This document shows, piece after piece, positions 11,491 through 24,907 of a stretch of 64,000 nt of DNA. Under the pieces are notes generated by a model. That model saw only the letters and a list, made by a program, of their open reading frames with translations, ran no database searches and was not told where the DNA came from. Position numbers and translations under genes: made by a program. Source of the DNA: Lactiplantibacillus xiangfangensis. Its GTDB lineage: Bacteria > Bacillota > Bacilli > Lactobacillales > Lactobacillaceae. The stretch covers positions 104,327-168,326 of the forward strand of contig NZ_JQCL01000074.1 of assembly GCF_001438845.1 (NCBI RefSeq), written 5' to 3'. Each line of letters begins with the position of its first letter. Position 1 is the stretch's first letter.

Positions 11491-12522
11491 TTACTTCTTT
11501 AAAATCAAGTTTGCTGCACCTTCATCCGTGATTAAACACGTCTGCTTAGGTGCGATGTTCTTCATATACGCCTCAATCGCGGTTGCCTTAGAAGCACCTC
11601 CCGCAATTGCGAGTATAATCTCCCGATCGGCCAGTTCTCCGATTTGCAAGCCAATCCGCGGAATCCGGTAGACCACGTTACCCTCTTGATCAAAGAAGTA
11701 ACCAAAGGCTTCACCGATCGCATGGCGACCATGTAACACCTTTATCTGATCTTCCGACATATTCCGCCGGTGAGCCATCGCAGTGGCATCGCCAATGCTA
11801 TGGACCACAACGTTTGCTTGCCGAATAATCGCCAACACCTCTTGGATACTAGGTTCCTTAAGGAGCGGTTCATAAGTTCGTTCACTGACCTGTTCTGGTA
11901 CAAACAGTGACCGGAATTTTCCTCCAGTGTGTTGTGCCATCTGTGACGCAATCGTGTTAGCTTGAATCGCAACCGACTCACCAACACCGCCACGTGCGGG
12001 CACGAATAACAAATCACGCTTGTTCGCTAAGCGATTAGTTAAGTGATTTGCAACGTGCTCCATGGTGTGACCACCCATTACGGCAACGATGTTCTTACCT
12101 TCTGGCAACAACTGCTGTAATAACTGATTCACTTCTTCGCCCATGGTCCCAATAACTTTCAACTGTCGATCGGAGTCGCCGGAAACGATGATGCACCGTT
12201 TAATGTTAAAACGTTGTGCTAACTGTCGTTCCTTTTGGCGAATCCCCATCAGCTCATCCATAAACTGACTCAGTCCGAGTAAAACGTCTTGTCCCTGCTG
12301 CGTCACCTGCATCCCCGACTTGCTTGTCATAATCAAATCAAGTTTGCGTAAGGTATCCGTTTCAGTTCGCAACGTCCGCTCGCTGACGTCTAAAGTTTGT
12401 GCTAACAACCGACGTCCAACTGGGGCCATCCAATTAATGGTACGCAATACCAAGTAACGACGACTCAGCATGTCCACCATATCTGGGGCAATTGCCTCAA
12501 TCCATTGAATATCTGAATGCAT
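11491..12522 (-). CDS. cggR: Central glycolytic genes regulator CggR
   Basis: This is a SorC-family repressor of the gap operon, inactivated by fructose 1,6-bisphosphate in Bacillus. The ATG at 12522 gives 343 aa and has AGCAGG 9 nt upstream; a TTG three codons earlier is less well placed. The N-terminus (about 25-75) is a helix-turn-helix (LDVSERTLRTETDTLRKLDL). The rest is the phospho-sugar-binding domain (VAVMGGHTM, FVPARGGVGE). Being first in the cluster lets it autoregulate. Confidence 0.95.
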   Translation of the reverse strand: MHSDIQWIEAIAPDMVDMLSRRYLVLRTINWMAPVGRRLLAQTLDVSERTLRTETDTLRKLDLIMTSKSGMQVTQQGQDVLLGLSQFMDELMGIRQKERQLAQRFNIKRCIIVSGDSDRQLKVIGTMGEEVNQLLQQLLPEGKNIVAVMGGHTMEHVANHLTNRLANKRDLLFVPARGGVGESVAIQANTIASQMAQHTGGKFRSLFVPEQVSERTYEPLLKEPSIQEVLAIIRQANVVVHSIGDATAMAHRRNMSEDQIKVLHGRHAIGEAFGYFFDQEGNVVYRIPRIGLQIGELADREIILAIAGGASKATAIEAYMKNIAPKQTCLITDEGAANLILKK

Positions 12523-12545
12523 GGCATCCAACCTGCTCTCTAGTG

Positions 12546-12569
12546 GGACGGATCTAGTCCAGCTATGTC
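12546..12569. promoter_or_regulatory. Candidate CggR operator between promoter and cggR
   Basis: Reading the plus strand, GGGAC is followed by an inverted GTCC (GGAC-N7-GTCC) and then TGTC at 12566. Known CggR operators contain GGGAC and TGTC half-sites in this promoter-to-cggR position. The match is partial, so this is tentative. Confidence 0.35.
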
Positions 12570-12659
12570 GAATAACGACCCAAAGACTTCAAAAAACAAA
12601 GCACACAACTCAAATTTACTACGAAATCGATGTTGCATACCTCTCTTACCACAACAAGA

Positions 12660-12688
12660 ATTATAACAGGTTCGGTTAGCCGTTGCAA
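12660..12688 (-). promoter_or_regulatory. cggR-gap promoter
   Basis: The minus strand reads TTGCAA, a 17-bp spacer and a perfect TATAAT. A start near 12653 leaves a 5' leader of about 130 nt before cggR. Confidence 0.75.
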
Positions 12689-12741
12689 ATTAAACAGCGT
12701 CACTCGTTAGAACCGATTGGTCTAAATACAGGTAATTGCTA

Positions 12742-14076
12742 TTATTCGGTCTTTAAGTACTGTTTTCGTTTAGATGATGACGGAATGTTAAGATTTTCCC
12801 GATATTTGGCGACTGTCCGCCGGGAAAGTTCGACATTTTCCGCCTTAAGAATCTGAACTATTTTCTGGTCTGAAAGCGGTTTTTCTTTATTTTCCTGTTC
12901 AACCAGCGCAATAATTCGGTGCTGAACGTTATCTGCTGACACTAGTTGGCCGTCAGTGGGACGCTTGGTGACCGCCTTGGTAAAGAAACGTTTAAGTTCA
13001 AACATTCCAAAGTCCGTTTGAATGTACTTTCCATTAATACTTCTACTAATTGTCGATTCATGGACTTGTAATTGCTGTGCAACGTCCCGCAATAGTAGTG
13101 GTTTTAATTCCGTACTCCGTTCCAAAAAGAAATCAGCCTGGCGTTCAACGATCGCACTCCCTACCCGAAAGATAGTCGACTCACGTTGTTCAAGGCTACT
13201 TGCAATCCATTCATATTCAGATTTCTTTTCTTTAAGGTACTCCGTGACTTGCTGATCACCGTGGCGACTCATTTGTTGATAATAGTTGCTCTGGAACTTA
13301 ACAATCGGCTGCGCCATGGATGCTGTTCGAAGTGCCAATTGACCATCACGATTAGTAACAACTAGGTCTGGAAAAATATAACCGGTCGTTTCTTGACCAA
13401 CCGCCGTCCCCGGCACTGGACTAAGAGTCCGCACGTAGTCATAAACACTCGAGATATCAGCTAGCCCGACACCGTAACGTTTAGCAATCTGTTCCCAGTG
13501 TCGATTAACAAAAGCTTCAAAGTTTTCTTCTAATATAATGTACGCTAAATTTGGCGCGTGGTCGTCATTCTCCGTTTGCAGCATCAGGGCTTCTTGCAAA
13601 CTGCGTGCCCCAACACCCGGTGGATCAAGTTGCTGCAATAACGTTACTGCGTCGAGTAGTTCGATCGACGATGCCCCAGTCTCTTGCTTTGCTTGCGCTT
13701 CATCAATTCGTAAGTACCCGTTCACATCAACGTATTCTATTAAGTATAAGACGATCTTTCGCAAGGGCGTATCACGCATCGTCAAATGAATCTGATCTAA
13801 TAAGTATTCAAATAATGAGTGTTGATTAGTTGTTGAGACCCGCTCAATAAAATCATTTTTAGCCGTGACGTTTTTTGCTGCATCCAACCCAGCGTGGTTT
13901 GCATTCCAGTTAGTGTCGACGTCAATTAGTGGGTTTTCGAGGGCTTTTTGGGTGAGAAAGTCTCGTAATTCCTCAACGTTGAACTGCAACATCTGAATCG
14001 ACTGCTGCAACCGCTGAGTCATGGCTAGTTTTTGTGATTGCCGTTGTTGCTGGTGAAAGCCTTGGCCTAGTGCCAT
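12742..14076 (-). CDS. rpoN: RNA polymerase sigma-54 factor
   Basis: Sigma-54 directs transcription from -24/-12 promoters with an activator ATPase; in L. plantarum it serves mannose-type PTS genes. It is 444 aa. Region I at the N-terminus has the Gln/Leu-rich activator contact (QSIQMLQFNVEELRDFL), the core-binding region lies in the middle, a helix-turn-helix contains VHESTISRSINGKY, and the RpoN box near the C-terminus reads SRRTVAKYREN. The start is ATG, 8 nt after GGGAGG. No matching activator is in the window. Confidence 0.97.
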   Translation of the reverse strand: MALGQGFHQQQRQSQKLAMTQRLQQSIQMLQFNVEELRDFLTQKALENPLIDVDTNWNANHAGLDAAKNVTAKNDFIERVSTTNQHSLFEYLLDQIHLTMRDTPLRKIVLYLIEYVDVNGYLRIDEAQAKQETGASSIELLDAVTLLQQLDPPGVGARSLQEALMLQTENDDHAPNLAYIILEENFEAFVNRHWEQIAKRYGVGLADISSVYDYVRTLSPVPGTAVGQETTGYIFPDLVVTNRDGQLALRTASMAQPIVKFQSNYYQQMSRHGDQQVTEYLKEKKSEYEWIASSLEQRESTIFRVGSAIVERQADFFLERSTELKPLLLRDVAQQLQVHESTISRSINGKYIQTDFGMFELKRFFTKAVTKRPTDGQLVSADNVQHRIIALVEQENKEKPLSDQKIVQILKAENVELSRRTVAKYRENLNIPSSSKRKQYLKTE

Positions 14077-14158
14077 AAATAATTCCTCCCAAATAAATTT
14101 TTATTTAAAACCCTTGTGTTTTTATCCATAATCCGCTAAACTATAATATGTTGTTTAG

Positions 14159-14230
14159 GCGCCCGTAGTGTAATGGATCGCACGTAAGATTCCGGTTCTT
14201 GAAATGGGGGTTCGATTCCCTCCGGGCGCA
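14159..14230 (+). tRNA. tRNA-Arg (anticodon CCG)
   Basis: A full cloverleaf folds by eye: acceptor GCGCCCG with CGGGCGC, D stem GTGT/GCAC, anticodon stem TAAGA/TCTTG with loop TTCCGGT (anticodon CCG), T stem GGGGG/CCCTC with loop TTCGATT, discriminator A. CCA is not encoded. It reads CGG arginine codons. It sits between the divergent rpoN and clpP genes and has its own terminator. Confidence 0.95.
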
Positions 14231-14236
14231 TAGCTT

Positions 14237-14263
14237 AGCTGAGATTATATCTCAGCTTTTTTT
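14237..14263 (+). terminator. Terminator after tRNA-Arg
   Basis: The perfect 9-bp stem AGCTGAGAT / ATCTCAGCT with loop TAT is followed by seven T, just after the tRNA 3' end. Confidence 0.9.
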
Positions 14264-14451
14264 ATACCCAAATATCATTTTTTAAACGATACCGCTTCCA
14301 CTTTCATATAGTAACGAACTTTTAAACGAACCACAAGTCTGCTACCTGGTGCGTTCACCTAATATTTAAGCGCCCCAACTTGAATATCAGCGGGGATTTA
14401 GCTATGCTATGGTTTAGGTAAGCTATCAAGCCGGCCCACGTAAAAGCGCGC
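14264..14451. other. Intergenic stretch without a recognised gene
   Basis: This stretch lies between the tRNA terminator and the minus-strand hairpin before clpP. It has no ORF with a convincing ribosome site. I see only short repeats, such as two ACGAAC words about 15 bp apart near 14310-14335. No known riboswitch motif is apparent. Confidence 0.5.
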
Positions 14452-14509
14452 GAAAAAAGAGACCGGGTCCGCCCGATCTCTAGCCGTATATGATAGAAAC
14501 CTAAGTATA
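14452..14509 (-). ncRNA. Possible very short transcript with its own promoter and terminator
   Basis: On the minus strand an extended -10 (GTGGTATACT, 14504-14513) is followed about 20 nt later by a strong hairpin, AGAGATCGGG CGGA CCCGGTCTCT, and six T (to 14453). No gene on this strand ends here, so the terminator either serves a transcript of about 45 nt or stops antisense transcription leaving the clpP promoter region. The -35 is poor. Confidence 0.35.
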
Positions 14510-14553
14510 CCACGTTGGGCAGTAAAACGGTATTTTGATTTTGAGGTTTTTCT

Positions 14554-14570
14554 TTTGACCTTTACTGACC
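14554..14570 (+). promoter_or_regulatory. CtsR operator upstream of clpP
   Basis: TTTGACC, three bases, then ACTGACC matches the tandem heptad of CtsR boxes (TTTGACC-N3-TTTGACC); the second heptad differs at two positions. It overlaps the -35 region of the clpP promoter, as expected for this heat-shock repressor. Confidence 0.8.
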
Positions 14571-14594
14571 TTAGCGGTAAACTACATTTATATT
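14565..14594 (+). promoter_or_regulatory. clpP promoter
   Basis: CTGACC (-35), an 18-bp spacer and TATATT (-10) lie about 50 bp before the clpP start. The CtsR box covers the -35. TTGACC/TAAACT (14555/14578) is an alternative pair. Confidence 0.6.
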
Positions 14595-14640
14595 AGCAAG
14601 TAGCTAATCATTATATTGAAACTTTAGGAGGCTAACAGTT

Positions 14641-15231
14641 ATGTATCCAGTTCCGACAGTTATCGAACAGTCATCACGCGGCGAACGCGCCTATGACATC
14701 TATTCACGACTACTAAAAGACCGTATCATCATGCTTTCCGGTCCAATTGAAGACAACATGGCTAACGCCATCATTGCCCAATTACTATTCTTAGATGCCC
14801 AAGATTCAGGTAAAGACATCTACCTTTATATCAACTCTCCAGGTGGGGTTGTCACTGCCGGCTTAGCTATCTATGACACGATGAACTTCATCAAATCTGA
14901 CGTTCAAACGATCGTTATGGGAATGGCTGCTTCAATGGCCAGTGTCTTGGCTTCGTCTGGGACAAAGGGCAAGCGTTTTGCTTTACCTAACTCCGAAATC
15001 TTGATTCACCAACCATCCGGTGGTGCTCAAGGTCAACAAACGGAAATTGAAATCGTGGCCGAAGAAATCTTGAAGACTCGTAAGAAGATCAACCAGATTT
15101 TAGCCGACAACGCCGGTCAATCCGTTGAAAAGTTGAACCACGATACGGAACGTGATAACTATCTAACGGCTCAAGAAGCCAAGGATTACGGTTTGATCGA
15201 TGATATCATGGAAAACAACAACTTAAAATAA
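14641..15231 (+). CDS. clpP: ATP-dependent Clp protease proteolytic subunit
   Basis: This serine protease forms the barrel used by ClpX, ClpC and ClpE to degrade damaged and regulatory proteins. It is 196 aa, with the oxyanion region [16 protein letters not shown], the catalytic Ser in [14 protein letters not shown], the His in [14 protein letters not shown] and the Asp in [11 protein letters not shown]. The start is ATG behind TAGGAGG. It is a single-gene unit with a CtsR box upstream and a terminator downstream, so it is probably induced by heat and protein damage. Confidence 0.99.
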
Positions 15232-15240
15232 TCGATTTTT

Positions 15241-15275
15241 AAACTGAACTAGCTCAGGCTGGTTCAGTTTTTTTG
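15241..15275 (+). terminator. Terminator after clpP
   Basis: AACTGAACTAGC pairs with GCTGGTTCAGTT around a short loop and is followed by seven T. Confidence 0.9.
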
Positions 15276-15350
15276 TCGTTCAACACTACTTGTATCCACC
15301 TACCGAGTGCCGCATACTAACATTATCATAACTAAAAAGGACTGTTATTA

Positions 15351-16322
15351 ATGACCAAAGTTTATATTGCCGGTCAGCTGCCAGCTAAGGCGACCGCACT
15401 GCTAGAACAAACAGCGCTCCAAATCGAAACGTATCAGGGCACGCAGCTGATTGATCACGCCACCTTGAAAGCTAACGTCGCCGATGCGGATTATCTCATC
15501 ACCCCACTCTCAACTACTGTTGACCGTGATATTTTAGACCACGCACCCCATTTAAAGTTAATCGCCAACTTCGGCGCGGGGACTAACAACGTGGATACGG
15601 CTCACGCTGCCACCCTAGGAATTCCAGTCACCAACACCCCCGGGGTCTCATCGGTGGCGACCGCTGAATCGACAGCCGGACTTATCATTGGGTTGGCCCA
15701 CCGAATTGCGGAGGGTGACCACTTGATGCGCACCGCTGGTTTTGCGGGCTGGGCGCCACTTTTCTTCTTAGGTCACAACCTACAAGCTAAGACACTCGGC
15801 ATTGTTGGCATGGGCCAAATTGGTCGTGAAGTTGCCAAACGCATGCACGCTTTTGATATGCCAATTCTTTATACCCAGCACCACCGCTTACCAATCAGCG
15901 TTGAAACTCAGTTGGGGGCGACTTACGTCTCATTGGAAGATTTACTTGCACAATCGGACGTGGTCTCCTTACACTTGCCACTGAATAAAAATACAACCCA
16001 TCTGATTAACGCAACTGCCTTTGAGCACATGAAACCAAGCGCTTACCTCATTAACGCCACCCGCGGACCAATCGTTGATGAGACTGCCCTAGTTACCGCG
16101 CTGCAAACTAAACAGATCGCGGGTGCCGCACTCGACGTCTACGAACACGAGCCTAACGTCGAACCAGCATTAAAATCAATGGCAAACGTACTACTAACAC
16201 CACATTTAGGTAACGCAACCGTCGAAGCACGCGATGGTATGGCGACCATCGTTGCTCAAAACGTGATTGCCGCCAGTCAGCACCGGGCGATTCAATTCGT
16301 TGTCAACGGGATTCAAGATTAA
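15351..16322 (+). CDS. D-isomer-specific 2-hydroxyacid dehydrogenase
   Basis: This is a 323-aa NAD(P)-dependent dehydrogenase of the phosphoglycerate dehydrogenase/glyoxylate reductase superfamily. The N-terminal substrate domain is interrupted by the Rossmann domain (GIVGMGQIGREVAKRM). The catalytic Arg lies in NATRGPIVDE, the Glu in DVYEHEP and the His in LTPHLGNAT. There is no C-terminal ACT domain and no serine-pathway neighbour, so glyoxylate or other 2-oxoacid reduction is as likely as serine synthesis. The start is ATG, 9 nt after AAGGA. Confidence 0.9.
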   Translation: MTKVYIAGQLPAKATALLEQTALQIETYQGTQLIDHATLKANVADADYLITPLSTTVDRDILDHAPHLKLIANFGAGTNNVDTAHAATLGIPVTNTPGVSSVATAESTAGLIIGLAHRIAEGDHLMRTAGFAGWAPLFFLGHNLQAKTLGIVGMGQIGREVAKRMHAFDMPILYTQHHRLPISVETQLGATYVSLEDLLAQSDVVSLHLPLNKNTTHLINATAFEHMKPSAYLINATRGPIVDETALVTALQTKQIAGAALDVYEHEPNVEPALKSMANVLLTPHLGNATVEARDGMATIVAQNVIAASQHRAIQFVVNGIQD

Positions 16323-16323
16323 C

Positions 16324-16361
16324 AAAAAAGGATTTGAGACGACGGCCTCAAATCCTTTTTC
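16324..16361 (+). terminator. Terminator after the 2-hydroxyacid dehydrogenase gene
   Basis: AAAGGATTTGAG and CTCAAATCCTTT form a perfect 12-bp stem around ACGACGGC, followed by TTTTT. Confidence 0.9.
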
Positions 16362-16448
16362 ATTTAGTAGCGCATCTTGTAAGTCAGCGTTTCAACAAGA
16401 CACTCATAAAGTTTATACGTTGCCGTGCCCACTCAGTAAGTCGTCAAC

Positions 16449-18101
16449 TTACTGGGCGACGTACGCATACTTATAATTCCACTGAGTGCCGGCAGTGTTG
16501 TGAATAATCCCTTTGACCTTCGGATTTTGCAAGTAGGAATAAACCGTTTGATAGAGCGGTGTAATCCCTTGATCCTGCATAATCGTCCGTTCCGCCTGAA
16601 GCATATCTTGCCAACGGGCATTCGTGTTATTCGCATCCTGATTCTGCGCCTTTTTCACTAATGCATTATACGTTGAACTGTTGTACTTTCCGTAGTTATA
16701 GCCACTGTTCGACGTCATAATTTGCAAGTGTGAAATTGGGTCGTTAAAGTCAGCACCCCAACCACTTAGGTAAATATCAAAGTTACCTGATTGGGCCCGG
16801 CTCTGAGCAACCTTGGCTGGAATGTTGGATAAATCGACCGTCAAACCGCTCAAATTCTTTTCTAACGCGGACTTCAGATACTGCGAAATCGGCTTGTTAG
16901 GTTCGTCGTTCGACGTTAACATGTGTAACGTTAACTTCTTCAATCCGGTCTCTTTCAACCCTTGTTGCCATAACTGCTTGGCTAACGCAGTATCGTAAGA
17001 CGTCGAATCCTTTACGACTGATTCATCCGAGAAGTCTTTACCACTCTTAGGATCATTAGCTAAATCCTTTGGGACGAACGTCTTGGACGTGGTCGAGGCA
17101 TCCCCAATCACGTTTTTAACTAACGTATTCCGGTTGATTGATAGTGAGATGGCCTGACGAATCTTTTCGTTATTTAACGCCTTTTTAACCGTGGCGTTGC
17201 TATCATTAAAGTTATAAACCAAGAATGCGGTGATGGAATATGGATAAGTCGTGTAATCACTGTTACTCTTCATATTCTTAACCTGTTCACTAGCTAACTG
17301 CGTTAAATCCAATTTTTTCTCTTGGAATAGGTTCAACGTGGTGGTTGTACTTTCATTGACCGTGTAATTGATCTTTTGTAAATGAACGGCTTTTTTGTCC
17401 CAGTACTGGTCATTCTTAACGAACTGCCACTTGTTATTAGTCCCCGTCCAACCGGTTAACTTAAACGGCCCACTGTAAAGCATGTACTGAGCTTTCGTCG
17501 CGTATTTGCTTCCCCACTTCTTAACCGCTTTTTCACTGATCGGTCCAAATAGTGGGTAAGTCATTAGTTTCTTAAAGTAACTAATTGGTTTCTCTAAAGT
17601 GACGATAAACGTGTGCTGGCCCTCAGCCTTTACGCCAAGCGTGCTTGGCGACTTCTTACCAGCGACGATTGCGTCAGCATTCTGAACACCTGAGAATAAG
17701 TAAGCGTATTGCGACTTAGTGGCTGGTGTCACCGTACGTTTCCATGAATAAACAAAATCCTGTGCTGTAATCTTGGAACCATCGCTCCACTTAGCATCCC
17801 GAATCGTAAAGGTATAGGTCTTCCCGTCTTTAGAAACCTTCGTCGCCTTAGCTAAGCCCGGTGTGATACTACCGTTCTTGCCCAAGCGGTATAAGCTTTC
17901 AAAAATATTCCCGGTACTGCCATAACCGGACATGTTGGAAATATCAATTGAGTCAAGTGAACTTGGATAAGACAAATTTAGAACTTGATTACTGGCGTAC
18001 TTTCCGCTGCCCGTACTTTGACCACTCTGCTTGCCACAGGCCGCTAACACCGTCACTAACAATAAACTAAAGATAACCGTTAACACTGATCGCTTTTTCA
18101 T
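16449..18101 (-). CDS. oppA: Oligopeptide ABC transporter substrate-binding lipoprotein
   Basis: This is an extracellular solute-binding protein of family 5 (OppA/DppA), 550 aa. It has a signal peptide with lipobox VLAAC, so Cys22 would be lipidated and anchor it to the membrane. Family segments include LNLSYPSSLDSID near the N-terminus and KDAKWSDG-type residues (IRDAKWSDGSKITAQDFVYS). The start is ATG, 7 nt after GGGGCG. It stands alone, with no permease or ATPase genes beside it, so it must work with an Opp/Dpp membrane complex encoded elsewhere. A Cys-rich leader peptide and terminator precede it and probably control it. Confidence 0.94.
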   Translation of the reverse strand: MKKRSVLTVIFSLLLVTVLAACGKQSGQSTGSGKYASNQVLNLSYPSSLDSIDISNMSGYGSTGNIFESLYRLGKNGSITPGLAKATKVSKDGKTYTFTIRDAKWSDGSKITAQDFVYSWKRTVTPATKSQYAYLFSGVQNADAIVAGKKSPSTLGVKAEGQHTFIVTLEKPISYFKKLMTYPLFGPISEKAVKKWGSKYATKAQYMLYSGPFKLTGWTGTNNKWQFVKNDQYWDKKAVHLQKINYTVNESTTTTLNLFQEKKLDLTQLASEQVKNMKSNSDYTTYPYSITAFLVYNFNDSNATVKKALNNEKIRQAISLSINRNTLVKNVIGDASTTSKTFVPKDLANDPKSGKDFSDESVVKDSTSYDTALAKQLWQQGLKETGLKKLTLHMLTSNDEPNKPISQYLKSALEKNLSGLTVDLSNIPAKVAQSRAQSGNFDIYLSGWGADFNDPISHLQIMTSNSGYNYGKYNSSTYNALVKKAQNQDANNTNARWQDMLQAERTIMQDQGITPLYQTVYSYLQNPKVKGIIHNTAGTQWNYKYAYVAQ

Positions 18102-18157
18102 TCTTTTTCGCCCCTTTTTATATATTCAACTTACTGACCCTTAATTTGACCGGAAAC

Positions 18158-18199
18158 AAAAAGCGCCCACTTAGAATCTCGTCAGATTCCAAGCAGGCG
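18158..18199 (-). terminator. Strong terminator (attenuator) between the Cys-rich leader and oppA
   Basis: On the minus strand two 18-nt arms at 18182-18199 and 18161-18178 pair at all but one position, with three G-U pairs, around the loop GACG. TTTTT follows. It starts about 30 nt after the leader-peptide stop and ends about 57 nt before oppA, so oppA expression from the upstream promoter needs read-through or antitermination. Confidence 0.85.
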
Positions 18200-18230
18200 T
18201 TTCAAAAATAACGTTTTGAGCTCAATGCCG

Positions 18231-18338
18231 TTAGTTTTGATGCACTAGAGACGCTTGTAATTCAACGCAAATAACCATGTTGTTAGGTTCACAACATGGG
18301 CAGCACATCATCATTTGTTGGTTAGCTGACTTTTGCAT
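18231..18338 (-). CDS. 35-residue Cys-rich leader peptide upstream of oppA
   Basis: This small ORF has an ATG at 18338, GGAGAG 8 nt upstream, and a stop at 18231. The product is 35 aa and contains MMMCCPCCEPNNMVICVEL: two Cys pairs around a Pro, and a fifth Cys seven residues after them. There is no signal peptide. It is preceded by a consensus-like promoter and followed by a strong terminator before oppA. The layout is that of a transcription-attenuation leader that would sense charged tRNA-Cys (or Met: MMM). A free-standing metal- or thiol-binding micropeptide is the alternative. I do not know a named family for it. Confidence 0.7.
   Translation of the reverse strand: MQKSANQQMMMCCPCCEPNNMVICVELQASLVHQN
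18287..18311 (-). promoter_or_regulatory. Perfect hairpin over the Cys codons of the leader
   Basis: In the leader RNA CCATGTTGT and ACAACATGG pair perfectly (9 bp) around a 7-nt loop. The stem begins at the Pro codon of the Cys-Cys-Pro-Cys-Cys run. It could act as a pause or antitermination hairpin whose formation depends on the ribosome position. Confidence 0.6.
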
Positions 18339-18371
18339 GATTACGTCTCTCCGATTTCATAAGATGTGTAC

Positions 18372-18401
18372 AGTATAGATTTAGCCACTTACTTTTGTCA
18401 A
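18372..18401 (-). promoter_or_regulatory. Promoter of the Cys leader / oppA
   Basis: A perfect TTGACA, an 18-bp spacer and TATACT lie on the minus strand. The start point would be near 18365, about 27 nt before the leader ATG. Confidence 0.8.
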
Positions 18402-18434
18402 GCAATTTTATCATCAAAAATTCATTTTCTAATC

Positions 18435-18473
18435 AAAAATGCTGCACTACCCTTGGTAGTCACAGCATTTTTT
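18435..18473 (-). terminator. Terminator after whiA
   Basis: AAAATGCTGTGACTACC pairs with GGTAGTGCAGCATTTT (one mismatch) around AAG, followed by a T run, just after the whiA stop. It separates the rapZ-yvcK-whiA operon from the oppA leader promoter. Confidence 0.88.
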
Positions 18474-18477
18474 CTAG

Positions 18478-19410
18478 TTAAGCGTCTTTTTGTAACTGTT
18501 CCGCGAATTGATTGATTTTCCGCAGCCGGTGATTAATCCCCGACTTCGAGATTGGGCCCCCGGGAACAAGGGTCCCCAACTCTTTCAAACTCACTTCACG
18601 GTGTTCCAAACGCGTTACGGCCACTTCCTGTAACTTTGGTGGTAATTGTTTCAGTCCAACCGTCTCGTCGATCAACAAAATATTTTCAATTTGCTTACTA
18701 GATGCGTTGGCCACCTTATCCATATTCGCATTTTCACAGTTCACTAACCGGTTAACCGAATTACGCATATCGCGCATAATCCGGACATCTTCGAACTTCA
18801 ACATGCCAGTCGTCGCACCAATCAGCGATAAAAAGTCAGCAATCTTTTCAGCTTCCTTGATATAGGTGATAAAACCACCCCGACGATCAGTCGTCCGTGA
18901 ATTCAGTCCGTACTGATTCATCATTTCCGAAATCATCCGGTTATGTTCTTCATACAGGGAATAGATCTCCAAATGATAACGTGACGTTTCCGGATTATTG
19001 ACGGAACCGCCCGCTAAAAAGGCCCCCCGCAAATACGAGCGAACCGCCGCATCGTCGGTCAAGACTTCCGTTGGCGCAACTTCCACAATTTGATAGTCCT
19101 TTAAAATCCCTAAATCAGCAAGCACCATGTCGGTCCCCGTTTTTAGGCGAACAATGTACAAGTTATTTTTATTGAGTTTCATTTTACGACGAACAATGAG
19201 TTCACTCGCAACATCGTAAAATTGTTTGAGCAACCGGTAAATACGCCGCGCGATGGCCGGATTTTCGGTTTGAATATTCAAAATAAAATGGTGATTGGCC
19301 AAGCTAATCGTTCCATTCATTCGAATCAATGCCATCAGTTCAGCTTTGGCATTCTCGCGATGGACAGTAAGGTTGGTAAGTTCTTTCTTAACTTCACTGG
19401 CGTATGACAT
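18478..19410 (-). CDS. whiA: DNA-binding protein WhiA
   Basis: This is a conserved Gram-positive protein with a degenerate LAGLIDADG homing-endonuclease domain (N-terminal two thirds, including [16 protein letters not shown]) and a C-terminal helix-turn-helix ([26 protein letters not shown]). In Bacillus it is nucleoid-associated and influences division and chromosome segregation; in Streptomyces it controls sporulation genes. It is 310 aa with an ATG start behind AGGGGG. It is the last gene of the rapZ-yvcK-whiA operon, a fixed order in Firmicutes. Confidence 0.97.
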
Positions 19411-19422
19411 TCGCAGGTCCCC

Positions 19423-20424
19423 CTATCTTAAAATATCGGAATGACCAACTAAATTCATCAGTTCCGCGACCACCTGATCACCATCATGAAAGGCACCGTT
19501 GTCTCTCAACTTTAAAAAGTTCGAGGAGATCACCTTGCAATTTTGGTCCCGTAAGCCACGAAAATCGTGACTAACTTGGCGTGAAACTTCGTTAAATTTA
19601 TGGAAATCCATGTAATCAGCGGGAACTTTTTCCGTATTTACTAACACGGTGTTAATAAAGTTCTCTCCGAGGTGCCGGTTCAAGACCCGCACGTGATCGG
19701 CGTCCGAGAAATTATCGGTTTCGCCTTTTTGCGTCATAATATTACAAATATAAACAACTTCGGCATCGGTTGCGCACACCGCCCGCCCAATATTATTAAT
19801 CATCAGGTTAGGTAAAATGCTTGTAAACAAGCTCCCGGGGCCAAGTACGATTTGGTCCGCTTCCATGATGGCGTCAATGACTGGTTGCACGGCGGTCGGC
19901 TCGTCGCCGTTCTTATCCGTGACCCACACCTTTTGCAGTGACTTATGAGCAGCCGTAATTTCAGCTTCACCAACCAACTCCGCGCCATCCTTAAATCTGC
20001 CGTGTAATGTCAAAGCTTCGTTAGCTGCTGGGTAGACGTGGCCATCCACTTGCATCATTCTCGACAGTTCTTGGACCGCGTCAAACACCCCGGACTTCAT
20101 TTCAGTCAACGCTGCGATGATCAAATTACCAATTGCGTGTCCCGCAAAGAATTGGTCATCACCTTGAAAACGGTACTGAAAAATGTCTTTGTAAATGTGT
20201 GGTAAATTCGACAAAGCAACCATGACGTTTCGAATGTCGCCAGGTGGCACAACGTTGACGTAATTCCGAATAATTCCGGACGACCCACCATCATCAGCAA
20301 CCGTCACGATCGCCGTGATGTCAACGGCTTGCTTACGCAAACCGTTTAGGACAACTGGTAAACCAGTTCCCCCGCCAATCACGACGATTTTTGGTCGCTG
20401 AGTTTTAAACGTATATTTTCTCAT
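19423..20424 (-). CDS. yvcK: YvcK/GlmR-type gluconeogenesis and cell-wall factor
   Basis: This is a CofD-like protein of 333 aa with [14 protein letters not shown] at 17-30 and the NV-rich DDGGSSG motif ([13 protein letters not shown]) of the UDP-sugar-binding site. The Bacillus homologue binds UDP-GlcNAc and stimulates GlmS, steering carbon to cell-wall precursors. The start overlaps the rapZ stop by 4 nt (ATGA), so translation is probably coupled. The position between rapZ and whiA is conserved. Confidence 0.95.
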
Positions 20425-21305
20425 GAGCGATTAACTGTTTCCTTTCGTTTTTCTATATCGCGGTGGCTAATGTGAACCTTATAGTTCTTAGCTAAGGCTT
20501 CACCGATTCGTTGAGCCAAGGCGACCGAACGGTGTTGTCCACCGGTACAGCCAATCGCAATCGTCAAGCTCGTTTTGCCCTCCGCTTCGTAGCCAGGCAT
20601 GATGCTCTCCAGCATTCCGAGGAATTGCTGGTAGAATTTCTCCGTTGCCGGTTGATTCATCACGTAGTCAGAAACCGGCTTTTCCAACCCGGTGTGGTGC
20701 TTTAACTCCGGCACATAGTATGGGTTAGGTAAGAACCGGACATCCATGACAATATCTGCATCAATCGGTAAACCATATTTAAACCCGAAGGATAACATCT
20801 CAATGTGGAACGTTTCATCGGGACTCGTTTCAAATTTATCAAAAATAGATTCACGCAATTCACGCGGCGTCAGTGACGACGTATCAATTACGTAAGACGC
20901 GCGGTCTTTTAACGGTGCTAAGAGTTCGCGTTCCTTACGAACGCCGTCCATAACCCGCCCCTCCATCGCTAATGGGTGGGAACGCCGGGTTTCCTTGTAA
21001 CGTGAGACTAACTCTTCGTTAGAAGCATCTAAGAACAAAATCTTAGTCGAGACAAAGTCAGTATTATCGACATTTGCTAACATATCCATAATTTCATCGT
21101 AAAAAGCGCGTGATCGTAAATCAATCACCAGGGCAACTTTTTCAATCTTACCAGACTCTTCTACTAATTCTGAGAATTTCGGTAATAAGGCTGGCGGCAT
21201 ATTATCAATACAGAAATAGCCGAGATCTTCAAAACTCTGGACGGCAACTGTCTTACCAGCGCCACTCATTCCAGAGACAATGACCAATTGTAACGAATCT
21301 GCCAT
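20421..21305 (-). CDS. rapZ: RNase adapter / nucleotide-binding protein RapZ (YvcJ)
   Basis: This is a P-loop protein of 294 aa with Walker A GMSGAGKT (12-19), a DLRSR motif ([13 protein letters not shown]) and the C-terminal [15 protein letters not shown] segment of the phosphosugar-sensing domain. It hydrolyses GTP/ATP. In E. coli RapZ senses glucosamine-6-phosphate; in Bacillus YvcJ affects competence. The start is ATG, 7 nt after GGGAG. It is first in the rapZ-yvcK-whiA operon. Confidence 0.96.
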
Positions 21306-21336
21306 GTTTTTGCTCCCTTTAGTCCATAATGTTGGT

Positions 21337-21366
21337 AGTATAACATACCGGGTGTGTCATGACCAA
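21337..21366 (-). promoter_or_regulatory. rapZ operon promoter
   Basis: TTGGTC, an 18-bp spacer and TATACT with an upstream TG (extended -10) lie 31 bp before the rapZ ATG. Confidence 0.55.
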
Positions 21367-21464
21367 TTTTAGTCGCCGGCATGCCTAAAACAATGGGCCA
21401 AGCCAGTACGTTTAAGCACCAGCTGACCCATGTTTGTCCATCGTTAATTCAGTTAAATAACAAT

Positions 21465-22001
21465 CTAATTGCGCCGTGCAAACGCAATTAAGATCGCGTT
21501 GATTCCAAAGACAGCGAAATAGAAGCTGACCAAAACGTTAAACGTAAAGGCAGCGACGACTGGGCTGAATAATAGCATGAGTCCTAATACCAGCGTGATA
21601 ATATCAAAAATCAATGAAAGGACGTAATAGCCCATTCCGAAGACCTTCAAGTGTGATGCAACTGTCAATCGCTCGATGGAGTCGATCAAGAACCAGAATG
21701 CAAAGAGGTACCCGAGTACTAAAATACCCGTTGGTGCGTGGAATAAGAACAGCAATCCCACTAAAATATCGATAATGGCAAAAACCAGGGCAAAGTTCGC
21801 CCGCAGTCCCGTTTCACGTCGTAACTTGGTATAACCTGCAATGGTGGTAATCCCACTAATAATTGCAGCAATCGCGAATAGGAAGACCAAACTCAACAGT
21901 GCGGCCTTCGGTTGTTTCATAACAAAATAGGCGGCAACGAGGAACACGACCCCGGTCATAAACTCTGTCCAGTCGAATCCCCAACGATGATCGTCAAACA
22001 T
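21465..22001 (-). CDS. HdeD-family (DUF308) membrane protein
   Basis: This is a small integral membrane protein of 178 aa from the ATG at 22001, which has GGAG 9 nt upstream. The frame is open further upstream, but the promoter at 22033-22061 lies inside that extension. About six hydrophobic helices with short loops (FLVAAYFVMKQPKAALLSLVF; FWFLIDSIERLTVASHL) match the HdeD/DUF308 family. HdeD is linked to acid resistance in E. coli; the role here is not known. It is a single-gene unit. Confidence 0.85.
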   Translation of the reverse strand: MFDDHRWGFDWTEFMTGVVFLVAAYFVMKQPKAALLSLVFLFAIAAIISGITTIAGYTKLRRETGLRANFALVFAIIDILVGLLFLFHAPTGILVLGYLFAFWFLIDSIERLTVASHLKVFGMGYYVLSLIFDIITLVLGLMLLFSPVVAAFTFNVLVSFYFAVFGINAILIAFARRN

Positions 22002-22032
22002 AAGCAACATCTCCAATATACTATTTGTCTCC

Positions 22033-22061
22033 ATCATACCAGTTGATGAAAGAGTTTCCAA
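22033..22061 (-). promoter_or_regulatory. Promoter of the HdeD-like gene
   Basis: TTGGAA, a 17-bp spacer and TATGAT lie on the minus strand about 30 bp before the chosen ATG. This supports the shorter start. Confidence 0.65.
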
Positions 22062-22113
22062 TTTTTGTAGCGGATTTAACAATGGTTTAAAATTTGGCGC
22101 CACGACAGTACAA

Positions 22114-22149
22114 GAAAACACCAAGATGCCTTCACCTTGGTGTTTTTTG
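22114..22149. terminator. Bidirectional terminator after argGH
   Basis: AACACCAAG pairs with CTTGGTGTT around a 10-nt loop. The T run is longer on the plus strand; on the minus strand it reads TTTTCTTG. It probably ends argGH transcription. Confidence 0.65.
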
Positions 22150-22262
22150 ATTTAAACAATATCAATTTAAAGCTTAAAAACGATTGTTTATGATCTATTC
22201 CGGTTGACGCTGATAACAATGTCCCTGATATCAAAATCTATGGCAACCGGACTGGGCACTAC

Positions 22263-23666
22263 CTAGTCCTTGTTTACTGATTGATAGGCATCGAGCTGTT
22301 GTTGCGCCCGTTTTAATTCTAGTTTAATTTGGTCGAAACCAGTTCCACCAAGTGAATGCCGCCGTTCGACAGCTACCTTGGCATCCAAGTCATGGTAAAC
22401 GTCTTCTTGAATCAACGGTGAAATTTCTTGGTATTCACTTAATGGAATATCTTGCAACGGCCGGTTCTTCTTCAATCCATCGAGGACCAGCTTGCCCACG
22501 ATTGCATGGGCCTGACGGAATGGAATCCCCTTATTAGCTAAATAGTCGGCCAATTCAGTTGCATTTGAGAAATCGTTAGTCGTCGCGTGTGCCATGCGAT
22601 CTTCATTAACGGTCAAGGTTGCCAGCATCCCCGTAAAGACGTGTAAGCTCGTTAATAAGGTCGTTACGGTGTCAAAGGCACCTTCCTTGTCTTCTTGTAA
22701 ATCTTTGTTGTACGCCAACGGAATAGCCTTCATTACGGTCAACAAGCCCATTAAGTTCCCGTAGACCCGACCAGACTTACCGCGAATTAATTCGGCCATA
22801 TCCGGGTTCTTCTTCTGGGGCATAATTGAACTCCCAGTTGAAAATTGATCGCTTAAGCTAATGTACTTAAATTCATAACTACTCCAACTGACAATTTCCT
22901 CACAAAAACGCGATAGATGCATCATCAAAATTGAAGCGTTACTCAAGAATTCTAGGACAAAGTCCCGGTCAGAAACGGCATCCAGGCTATTATGATAGAC
23001 CTGACTGAAACCCAATAATTTAGCACTATATTCACGGTCAATTGGGAAAGTTGTTCCGGCTAAAGCCGCGGCTCCCAACGGTGAAATATCCGTATGCTGC
23101 ATGTTGAATTCGAACCGTTCCATATCACGCTTAAACATTTGGTAATAAGCTAACAAGTAATGTGCATAAGAGATTGGTTGGGCGTGTTGTAAATGGGTGT
23201 ACCCTGGCATCACAGTCTCGACGTTTTCACTAGCTTTATCAACCAAGACTTCTTCAAGGGCGTGTAGCCGGTCTAGAATCTTCGGCAACTGGTGTTTCAT
23301 GTAAAGGTGAAAATCCGTTGCAACTTGGTCGTTCCGTGAACGAGCGGTGTGTAATTTCCCAGCTACCGGACCGATTTCTTCCGTCAGCAATGATTCAATG
23401 TTCATGTGAATATCTTCGTTGACGGTCGAAAATTCCAGCTTACCCTGCTTTAAGCGTTCGTCTAAAGTTTCAAGCCCCGCTACAATTTTATCCACGTCTT
23501 CGGCAGGTAAAATTCCCGTCTTCTTTAACATCTTAACGTGTGCAAGTGAGCCGGCAATGTCTTCAGCAGCTAGCAACTGATCGAATCCGATTGACGCACC
23601 AAAATCATCCACGTACTTGGCACCGGTCTCAGTGAACCGGCCACCCCATAATTTTTTCGTACTCAT
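22263..23666 (-). CDS. argH: Argininosuccinate lyase
   Basis: This enzyme performs the last step of arginine synthesis, splitting argininosuccinate into arginine and fumarate. It is 467 aa with the superfamily signature [13 protein letters not shown], the early [12 protein letters not shown] and [12 protein letters not shown] motifs, and the catalytic His in [12 protein letters not shown]. Its ATG overlaps the argG stop by one base (TAATG), so the two are translationally coupled. The 3' region also has CCGGTTG/CAACCGG and GGACT/AGTCC inverted repeats before the terminator. Confidence 0.99.
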
Positions 23667-24907
23667 TAGGCGTGTTCCTTGTTAATTTTCGCTTTGGCGT
23701 CAGCTTGAACCTTGGCCTGAACTTGAGCATTAACCTGGGTTGGTAAGCCCCATAACTTGATAAAGCCAACCGCAGCCTGTTGATCAAATGAATCTGCCGC
23801 AGTATAAGTTGCTAAGTCTTTATCGTATAAGGAATTTGGTGACTTCCGGCCTTCCGTAATCACGTTTCCTTTAAAGAGTTGAACCCGAACAACACCGTTA
23901 ACAACTTGTTGCGTTTGCTTCAAGAAAGCAACCATGGCTTCCATCAATGGTGAGAACCATAAGCCGTTGTAAATCGTATCAGCTAATTTTTGTTCGATGA
24001 TTGGTTTGAAGTGCGCTAATTCCCGTTCAAAGGTCAAGTCTTCCAAATCCTTGTGGGCCTTCAATAAGACGGTCGCTGCGGGAGCTTCATAAACTTCACG
24101 CGATTTAATTCCGACTAACCGGTTTTCAATGTGGTCGATCCGACCAATTCCGTGTTCGCCAGCGATTTTGTCTAATTTAATAATTAAGTCGGCCAAGTTC
24201 ATAGCTTCGCCGTCCAAGGCAACTGGAACCCCCGCTTCAAACGTAATTTCTAACGTTGTTGGCGTATCCGGTGTATCAGCTAGCGCCTTAGTCCGATCAA
24301 AGGCATCAGCTGGTGCGCCTTCCCAAGGATCTTCCAAGATGCCGCATTCGTTGGCCCGGCCCCATAAGTTTTCGTCGATTGAGTATGGGCTGTCCAAGTT
24401 GATTGGTACGGGAATGTTATGTTTCTTAGCGTAATCAATTTCTTCTTCACGTGACCAGTGCCAGTCACGAACAGGTGCTTCAATCTTAATGTCTGGTGCC
24501 AACGCGTGAATGGCAACTTCGAAACGAACTTGGTCGTTCCCTTTACCAGTACAGCCATGCGCAATCGCAACCGCGTGTTCCTTTTTAGCAAGGTCAACGA
24601 GCTTCTTGGCAATCAATGGCCGTGATAAAGCAGAAACTAATGGGTATTCCCCTTCGTACAACGTGTGTCCTTGGAGGGCAATCAGGGCGTATTCTTCAGC
24701 AAATTCTTGTTTGGCATCAATCATGTAAGACGCAACGGCGCCAAGCTTTAAAGCCTTGTCCTTGATGGCATCCATGTCTTTGCCTTCACCAACATCGATT
24801 CCACAAGCGACCACGTCGTAGCCCTTGTCCTTCAACCAACTGATTGCAACGGATGTATCTAATCCACCAGAATAAGCAAGAATAATTTTTTCGTTTTGTT
24901 CGACCAT
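23666..24907 (-). CDS. argG: Argininosuccinate synthase
   Basis: This enzyme condenses citrulline and aspartate using ATP. It is 413 aa with the PP-loop SGGLDTS (13-19), the citrulline/aspartate-binding [14 protein letters not shown] and SIDENLWGR. The start is ATG behind GGAGGG. It is first in the argGH operon, with a promoter and ARG-box-like AT-rich repeats upstream, so regulation by ArgR-type repressors and arginine is likely. Other arginine genes are not in the window. Confidence 0.99.

Follow-up and report, generated by a model that had tools for sequence, protein, structure and literature searches.

An orphan gene for an extracellular peptide-binding protein, oppA, stands in the genome of Lactiplantibacillus xiangfangensis behind a promoter, a short Cys-rich ORF and an intrinsic terminator. 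What does this leader sense, and how could it act on the gene? The window is a stretch of 64,000 nucleotides, and all positions below count from its first letter. Our answer, which we give a probability of about 0.83, is that the leader is a ribosome-mediated transcription attenuator of the trp/his type, reading the supply of Cys-tRNA upstream of oppA. The original prediction had proposed Cys-codon attenuation here; comparison strongly supports it, through conserved Cys codons and compensatory changes in the pairing called P1.

The order on the minus strand is a whiA-like gene, promoter, leader ORF, terminator T and oppA; whiA, clpP and similar names in the window are our assumption, assigned partly by eye. 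The features are:

18372-18401, minus strand: promoter, TTGACA at 18401-18396, an 18-nt spacer and TATACT at 18377-18372, read from the sequence.
18231-18338, minus strand: leader ORF of 35 codons, MQKSANQQMMMCCPCCEPNNMVICVELQASLVHQN, with ATG at 18338 and a stop codon ending at 18231, from sequence and genus conservation.
18291-18305, minus strand: regulatory codons Cys-Cys-Pro-Cys-Cys (TGC TGC CCA TGT TGT), codons 12-16, conserved in the genus.
18247-18350, minus strand: P1, putative anti-antiterminator, AGAGACG/CGUCUCU, 18350-18344 (leader ribosome site) with 18253-18247 (leader ORF end), from folding and compensatory changes.
18275-18299, minus strand: P2, 9-bp hairpin spanning the second Cys pair, 18299-18291 with 18283-18275, from folding.
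18209-18233, minus strand: P3, UAACG/CGUUA hairpin starting at the leader stop codon, from folding, with 91.8% of alignment cells paired.
18180-18267, minus strand: AT, candidate antiterminator, 18267-18253 with 18194-18180, 12 pairs, interrupted, from folding and conservation.
18158-18199, minus strand: T, intrinsic terminator, 18199-18184 with 18179-18164 and the U-run TTTTT at 18162-18158, from folding (16 pairs, -25.4 kcal/mol).
16449-18101, minus strand: oppA, orphan extracellular peptide-binding protein (SBP_bac_5) of 550 aa, from domain search.

TTGACA-18-TATACT, GGAGAG with its ATG (33 nt from the -10 box), the 35-codon ORF and the Cys codons (12, 13, 15 and 16) all lie where they had been predicted. 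Folding returns the perfect 9-bp hairpin at the Cys codons as P2. For the terminator the TTTTT run stands, and the 18 stem positions first described fold as 16 pairs. A second predicted pairing (8 bp with one G-U) is also present, as seven Watson-Crick pairs plus that G-U; what changes is its role, since we now assign it as the anti-antiterminator P1, hiding the leader's own ribosome site. The parts of an attenuator can thus be read from the sequence: a short SD-led ORF after a promoter, a Cys-codon cluster, a terminator and P1. For the 218-nt leader the folding energy is -67.9 kcal/mol (z -5.2), a stability that none of 200 shuffles equalled. No Rfam family reached its gathering score on the leader, the sole such match in the whole window being a tRNA, and the Rfam scan placed neither the T-box (RF00230) consensus nor Stem I there. 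Between the whiA-like gene and the leader promoter, 18434-18469 holds a terminator-like hairpin (AATGCTGTGACTACC...GGTAGTGCAGCATTTTT, -16.6 kcal/mol).

The OppA protein matches SBP_bac_5 (E 1e-79), has the lipobox LAAC (by eye), and scores below the curated cut-off of every one of the 12 NCBIfam models listed. By eye, no transporter permease or ATPase was found among ORFs of at least 80 aa in 12000-24000, in agreement with the earlier description of oppA as an orphan.

Leader DNA was found in 21 of 21 Lactiplantibacillus genomes searched, and CCPCC is invariant in all 22 same-genus copies (21 oppA leaders and an extra copy, L022); conservation of this extent rules out chance. TTGACAAAAGTAAG and TATACT align in 21 of 21 same-genus oppA copies, the terminator stem and U-run in 21 of 21 aligned same-genus copies, and L022 keeps TTGACA and TATACT. 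Inside the genus the leader peptide is well conserved.

The structure alignment (A4) holds 17 of the 22 same-genus copies, with 2-6 rows lacking the P1 5′ strand because of the cut position. Over these rows the P1 column pair 54/157 is compensatory (AU 8, CG 2, UA 2, GC 1, UG 1), and 57/154 has CG 11, UA 3 and one unpaired. In covariation tests that are lenient here, the rows being related, P1, P2, P3 and T together leave 96.8% of cells paired with a covariation score of 0.094, reached by none of 500 column shuffles and no slid version; the counts of double-change pairs (2) and further pair types (13) were matched by 302 and 270 of 500 shuffles. Compensatory stem changes, which had been proposed as a check, are therefore present in P1. 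The other stem, P2, shows the same eight counted pairs in all 17 of the aligned rows and no covariation; as it never varies, it says nothing on this point. P2 is possibly a polymerase pause hairpin.

The two strands of the terminator are unequally conserved, with 1 variable column of 16 in the 5′ strand and 6 in the 3′ strand, whereas a terminator alone would leave both equally free. When the terminator 3′ strand is omitted and folding starts after the Cys codons, CGUUGAAUUACAAGC at the leader ORF end pairs with both the T 5′ strand and its UGACG loop. This is the helix AT, a conserved candidate for the antiterminator that the original prediction could not clearly identify. In 20 of 21 genus sequences folded without the 3′ terminator strand, its key C-G pair forms with a probability of 0.85 or higher (0.22 in L021), and 203 of 204 cells are paired over 17 rows, versus 24-42% when the helix is slid. 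No covariation of AT was found in the genus, where its pairs hardly vary, so the case for it there is one of conservation. Among the 21 Lactiplantibacillus sequences the AT duplex energy was better than shuffles in none, and seven passed the AT folding test at 0.1. P1 and AT are mutually exclusive because the same CGUUGAAUUACAAGC segment also provides the P1 3′ strand; AT and T are mutually exclusive as well, AT taking the terminator 5′ strand and loop. The suggested search for mutually exclusive folds points to P1/AT and AT/T as predicted alternatives.

Observed in silico are the leader, its conservation, the covariation of P1 and the mutually exclusive pairings; from these we infer ribosome stalling and read-through as follows. 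With no ribosome on the leader, its ribosome site would pair with the leader ORF end (P1) and the terminator would form. With plentiful Cys-tRNA, a ribosome would reach the stop codon and cover the AT 5′ strand, and again the terminator would form. With scarce Cys-tRNA, a ribosome would stall at the CCPCC codons and block P1; the leader ORF end could then pair with the terminator 5′ strand and loop (AT), and polymerase would enter oppA. Peptides or thiol compounds, possibly glutathione, might then be imported as a cysteine supply through a permease encoded elsewhere.

Does the arrangement extend beyond the genus? Searching named genomes for OppA yielded 43 loci: 12 Lactiplantibacillus-like, 19 distant relatives from outside Lactobacillaceae (24-34% identity) and 12 orthologues at 53-62% identity, from Pediococcus (6), Ligilactobacillus (2), Agrilactobacillus, Secundilactobacillus, Levilactobacillus and Lapidilactobacillus. 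By eye, all 12 orthologues in these six other genera have an upstream Cys-rich leader ORF, one with a GTG start. The Cys codons, whose conservation had been proposed as a check, are thus kept across species and genera.

OppA was matched at E<=1e-170 in 150 of 397 family genomes. Among the matches listed, 120 upstream regions were scanned (118 orthologue places outside the genus and two paralogues inside it, nine Pediococcus places, L134-L142, being left out) for an ORF of 10-60 codons that follows an SD and has three or more Cys within eight codons. Such an ORF lies upstream of oppA in 98 of the 118 orthologue places listed, many of them close relatives, and at neither paralogue; as controls, the reverse strand had such an ORF in 0 of 120 and ten shuffles had one in 4-8 of 120. 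The choice of ORF is doubtful at L155 (where the second choice is the likely leader), L201, L227, L244 and L255. The 22 regions that failed the filter include the paralogues L261 and L262; L212 and L222, cut off at contig ends; L193 and L221, with GTG-start CCCC leaders; the place of L239, whose longer fetch (L268) has a Cys-rich frame without ATG; L248, with two Cys and a terminator-like hairpin; and places with a T-box, namely 10 of 11 g31 places, L169 (g34) and L258, the last having a T-box plus a small Cys ORF. At L217 (g31) and L243 neither Cys leader nor T-box was seen. At G325:C6, the neighbouring oppA paralogues L154 and L157 have one Cys leader each.

Searching by the leader peptide itself was less productive. 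Its profile matched 97 of 397 family genomes at E<=1, 21 of them same-genus. Nine profile loci outside the genus (L044-L052) were inspected, of which two in Pediococcus (L046 and L047) were judged real and seven chance. Since at least the weaker matches G209:C34 and G260:C5 lie, by coordinates, just upstream of oppA, the profile misses and underrates real leaders. Profile A2, run on 395 genomes of the order, matched 22 genomes at E<=0.05, five of them same-genus; among the rest, G174:C119 precedes oppA. As a regulon finder in the own genome the pattern TGYTGYNNNTGYTGY was rejected (21 sites versus 19 for the reversed control).

The Cys cluster is conserved between genera while the rest of the leader peptide drifts: leaders read MSKFINTQCCCLVTCC... 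in L. salivarius and MLTNANQLNQVMIACCVCNVC... in Levilactobacillus, and Cys spacing is not fixed (CCPCC, CCSMC, CCCLVTCC, CACC, CCECN, CCCQ). This bears on the proposal that the small ORF encodes a functional peptide and that the terminator merely ends its transcript. The peptide is conserved in the genus, and four Pediococcus leaders keep (by eye) an NNM.ICV-like stretch common to the Lactiplantibacillus leader. Yet most of the conserved codons in the genus sit in the P1, P2 and AT strands, little but Cys survives in the other genera read, and the alternative pairing with the terminator is conserved; we rate the chances of a functional peptide as minimal.

The pairings of the proposed attenuator were modelled across genera on 145 sequences, which gave 120 leaders with a terminator, five candidates without one and 20 sequences without a candidate ORF; an intrinsic terminator thus lies between leader ORF and gene in 120 of 125 leader candidates. 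The 120 leaders reduce to 43 at <60% similarity. P1 recurs in other genera with different sequences. In 87 of 120 leaders it outdoes 95 or more of 100 shuffles, and the downstream segment of another genus pairs equally well in 7.7% of swaps. For AT, by duplex energy, 26 of 120 leaders beat shuffles at 5%, and in 33% of swaps an other-genus segment is an equally good partner for the own terminator strand; in 89 of 120 leaders AT and the P1 3′ strand have 4 nt or more in common, versus 53.6 expected. The Agrilactobacillus leader (L156) may serve as an example, with P1 formed by CUAUCGAUG and CAUCGAUAG, and AT by GAUAGCGG and the terminator strand CCGCUAUC.

In partition-function folding, AT is occupied at 0.70 when a ribosome stalls at the first Cys, at 0.43 with no ribosome and at 0.25 when a ribosome sits on the stop codon, the last value owing partly to the shorter free RNA. 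Shuffled sequence gives 0.49, and 67 of 120 leaders pass at 0.1. In this model the order of occupancies is the one required by a trp-type switch. The spacing can be described in the same terms. The median position of the first Cys is codon 11, which lies roughly the length of one ribosome beyond the start. From the last Cys of the cluster to the beginning of the P1 3′ strand the median distance is 23 nt; this strand lies a median of 11 nt ahead of the stop codon end, before which it finishes in 103 of 120 leaders (g25 is a clear exception, its best P1 lying beyond the stop codon). Given such spacing, the P1 5′ strand would be occupied by a ribosome queued at the start.

Another small ORF rich in Cys (e.g. 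MSPGCPCLNKN...) was noticed between terminator and oppA at L064-L066, L071, L074, L085 and L145 (Pediococcus), in g14 and at L204; it may be a second sensor, acting on translation. Could the leader as a whole work mainly on oppA translation or mRNA stability, and not on transcription termination? This would suit the second ORF, present in 6 of 7 Pediococcus, 8 of 17 g14 and 1 of 5 g21 leaders, and the five candidate leaders without a detected terminator. Against it, no Lactiplantibacillus leader has the second ORF (0 of 21) and the terminator is kept throughout that genus, so we consider control at these levels very unlikely as the main action.

The attenuator reading leaves the choice of signal to be weighed, and here methionine enters. 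Among the matches listed, a T-box precedes oppA in 13 of 118 places: 10 of 11 g31 places, the one g34 place, and the g12 places L244 and L258, where the T-box is followed by a small Cys-rich ORF. Twelve were found by signature and L258 in addition; of 20 loci scanned, only L169 (97.0) and L147 (94.1) met the Rfam gathering score. To set the register of the specifier we used own-genome T-boxes upstream of metE-like, MetN, leuS and ileS genes (identified by eye); in this register the specifier of the oppA T-boxes reads AUG, for methionine, in 13 of 13. An alternative register in GAAGAUG would give GAU (Asp), but L198, L244 and L258 read GAAAAUG. The own genome (G000) has 32 T-box matches at E<=0.001, 13 above the Rfam cut-off; one of these loci, L297, precedes an oppA-like gene, and its specifier may be Trp.

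A related operon shows the same pair of sensors. The extra copy L022 (also L263; G019:C1, ~1276396-1276500) is a second Cys leader with a terminator, standing before a permease-permease-ATPase-binding-protein operon; in G004, of the same genus, this kind of operon has a methionine T-box. The nearest PDB entry to the L022 operon binding protein, among the matches listed, is 2yjp (E 2e-77), and the protein scores below cut-off against the cystine and arginine models. Orthologous amino-acid ABC operons were matched in 34 of 201 genomes and 30 were fetched, with 3 Cys leaders (g4, g6), 14 T-box signatures and 13 having neither sensor. The T-boxes of g1, g34 and G106 read AUG (by eye). Six from g14 (L316, L323, L324, L326, L327 and L331), with GAAAGUGCGCUYKGAG, have the specifier GUG (Val) or, shifted by one, UGC (Cys).

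The leader might accordingly be taken to respond to methionine as well as cysteine, with a stall zone (MMMCCPCC) made up of the codons for both and with OppA serving the uptake of sulphur-amino-acid peptides generally. Met makes up 10.4% of the 423 residues flanking the Cys clusters of 43 dissimilar leaders, about fivefold the 2.03% expected from base composition, and a non-start Met lies in or within five codons of the cluster in 86 of 120 leaders. In line with this are the 13 AUG-specifier T-boxes at oppA orthologues and the ABC operon bearing Cys leaders or Met T-boxes according to genome. However, 34 of 120 leaders have no such Met (e.g. L165, L251), MMM is replaced by MLMN or SMT in L016, L017 and L020, and ATG is found within the P2 stem and close to possible starts as well. 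We keep joint sensing as a real possibility that falls somewhat short of an even chance; it is a wider form of the Cys attenuator and compatible with the Cys reading. Because of the Met T-boxes at oppA and the Met enrichment beside the Cys clusters, the signal may be sulphur-amino-acid supply and not cysteine alone. Methionine is likely relevant besides cysteine, as far as sequence comparison goes, which would correct the emphasis of the original prediction on cysteine; T-box exchange, ABC-operon sensors and Met enrichment together point to sulphur-amino-acid uptake. Still broader, and held tentatively at a little under even odds, is a family-wide sulphur-amino-acid sensor in which one peptide reads Met and Cys, its own ribosome site acts as anti-antiterminator, and the device has been swapped in evolution with Met T-boxes at oppA and the ABC operon, sometimes in tandem. 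If true, sulphur sensing would assign the orphan OppA proteins of Lactobacillaceae to import of sulphur amino acids or thiol peptides.

OppA would, on inference from the leader, import cysteine-supplying peptides or thiol compounds, possibly glutathione, via a permease encoded elsewhere. Precedents exist: Listeria CtaP, annotated as oligopeptide-binding, is associated with cysteine transport (PMC10269559), Listeria Opp takes up Cys-containing peptides (PMC6389498) and E. coli Opp takes up reduced glutathione (PMC11719327), so orphan or OppA-type proteins are able to serve cysteine supply.

Expression data are published for L. plantarum. We take its lp_0783 to be the oppA orthologue, on grounds of synteny. 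In an acid-stress RNA-seq study, lp_0783 rises (log2 2.61) together with cysE (3.18), cblB (3.69) and cbs (3.45); copB also rises (2.51), and copA is at 1.23 (n.s., FDR 0.15) (PMC7645587). In other studies, lp_0783 was increased at 1 h with acyl-homoserine lactone, when mtsABC and metN also rose (PMC6459948), and is discussed for heparin binding (PMC11109227). A cadmium-tolerance study also lists it among the differential proteins, at 2.77 (PMC5430759). The rise of copB under acid is fitted as well by metal stress, and together with the cadmium entry it could speak for a different sensor, in which metal binding by the nascent Cys-rich peptide, or its oxidation, would arrest the ribosome; Cys clusters could bind metal. 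We think metal or thiol-stress sensing improbable, as Cys spacing varies between genera, the target gene encodes a peptide-binding protein, and the exchange with T-boxes points to aminoacyl-tRNA.

The Cys-tRNA attenuator can now be set beside known systems. In the trp/his attenuators of Proteobacteria a leader ORF is combined with an anti-antiterminator, an antiterminator and an intrinsic terminator that exclude each other. The oppA leader resembles them in having codons of the presumed sensed residue in a leader ORF and, with AT as a candidate antiterminator, three structures predicted to be mutually exclusive. It differs in its Cys codons (often with Met beside them), in a P1 5′ strand that is the leader's own ribosome site, in its target, an orphan peptide-binding protein, and in its host, Lactobacillaceae. 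Leaderless short polycysteine ORFs of mycobacteria reportedly respond to cysteine (Canestrari 2020). They share a run of Cys codons in a short ORF before sulphur genes; unlike them, the window leader is SD-led (GGAGAG) and has a terminator and a candidate antiterminator. Among Actinobacteria, Cys leaders also precede cys genes, the mycobacterial regions being without a conserved terminator hairpin (PMC1262725). Another system is uORFC-8-2, before cysS of Rhodobacterales, with a uORF, tandem Cys codons, hairpins, a terminator and predicted Cys-tRNA control (PMC8632094); compared by description, it belongs to another phylum, precedes cysS and not oppA, and has two Cys codons, usually at 14-15.

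Methionine-specific T-boxes (RF00230) likewise sense aminoacyl-tRNA supply through a terminator switch, and do so at orthologous oppA genes; they bind tRNA directly without a leader ORF, whereas the window leader is ORF-based and has no T-box match. The main text of the T-box study Wels 2008 does not name lp_0783 (PMC2494555). Leader-peptide attenuation replacing a T-box is known from Firmicutes in the His leader peptides before hisS*/hisZ of bacilli (PMC2965389), which differ in having His codons and tRNA-synthetase-like genes. Within the literature open to our search, subscription papers being mostly beyond it, no description of a Cys leader before oppA in lactobacilli was found. T-box control has expanded strongly in Lactobacillaceae (PMC7058034), and a classical leader-peptide attenuator across many genera of a family where T-boxes dominate is unexpected. 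The leader also hints at what a widespread orphan peptide-binding protein may do, and the oppA loci preserve a natural history of how one type of sensor has given way to another at a single gene. The mechanism class is already known; what is new is the specificity, the target, an anti-antiterminator strand formed by the leader's own ribosome site, and the exchange with Met T-boxes.
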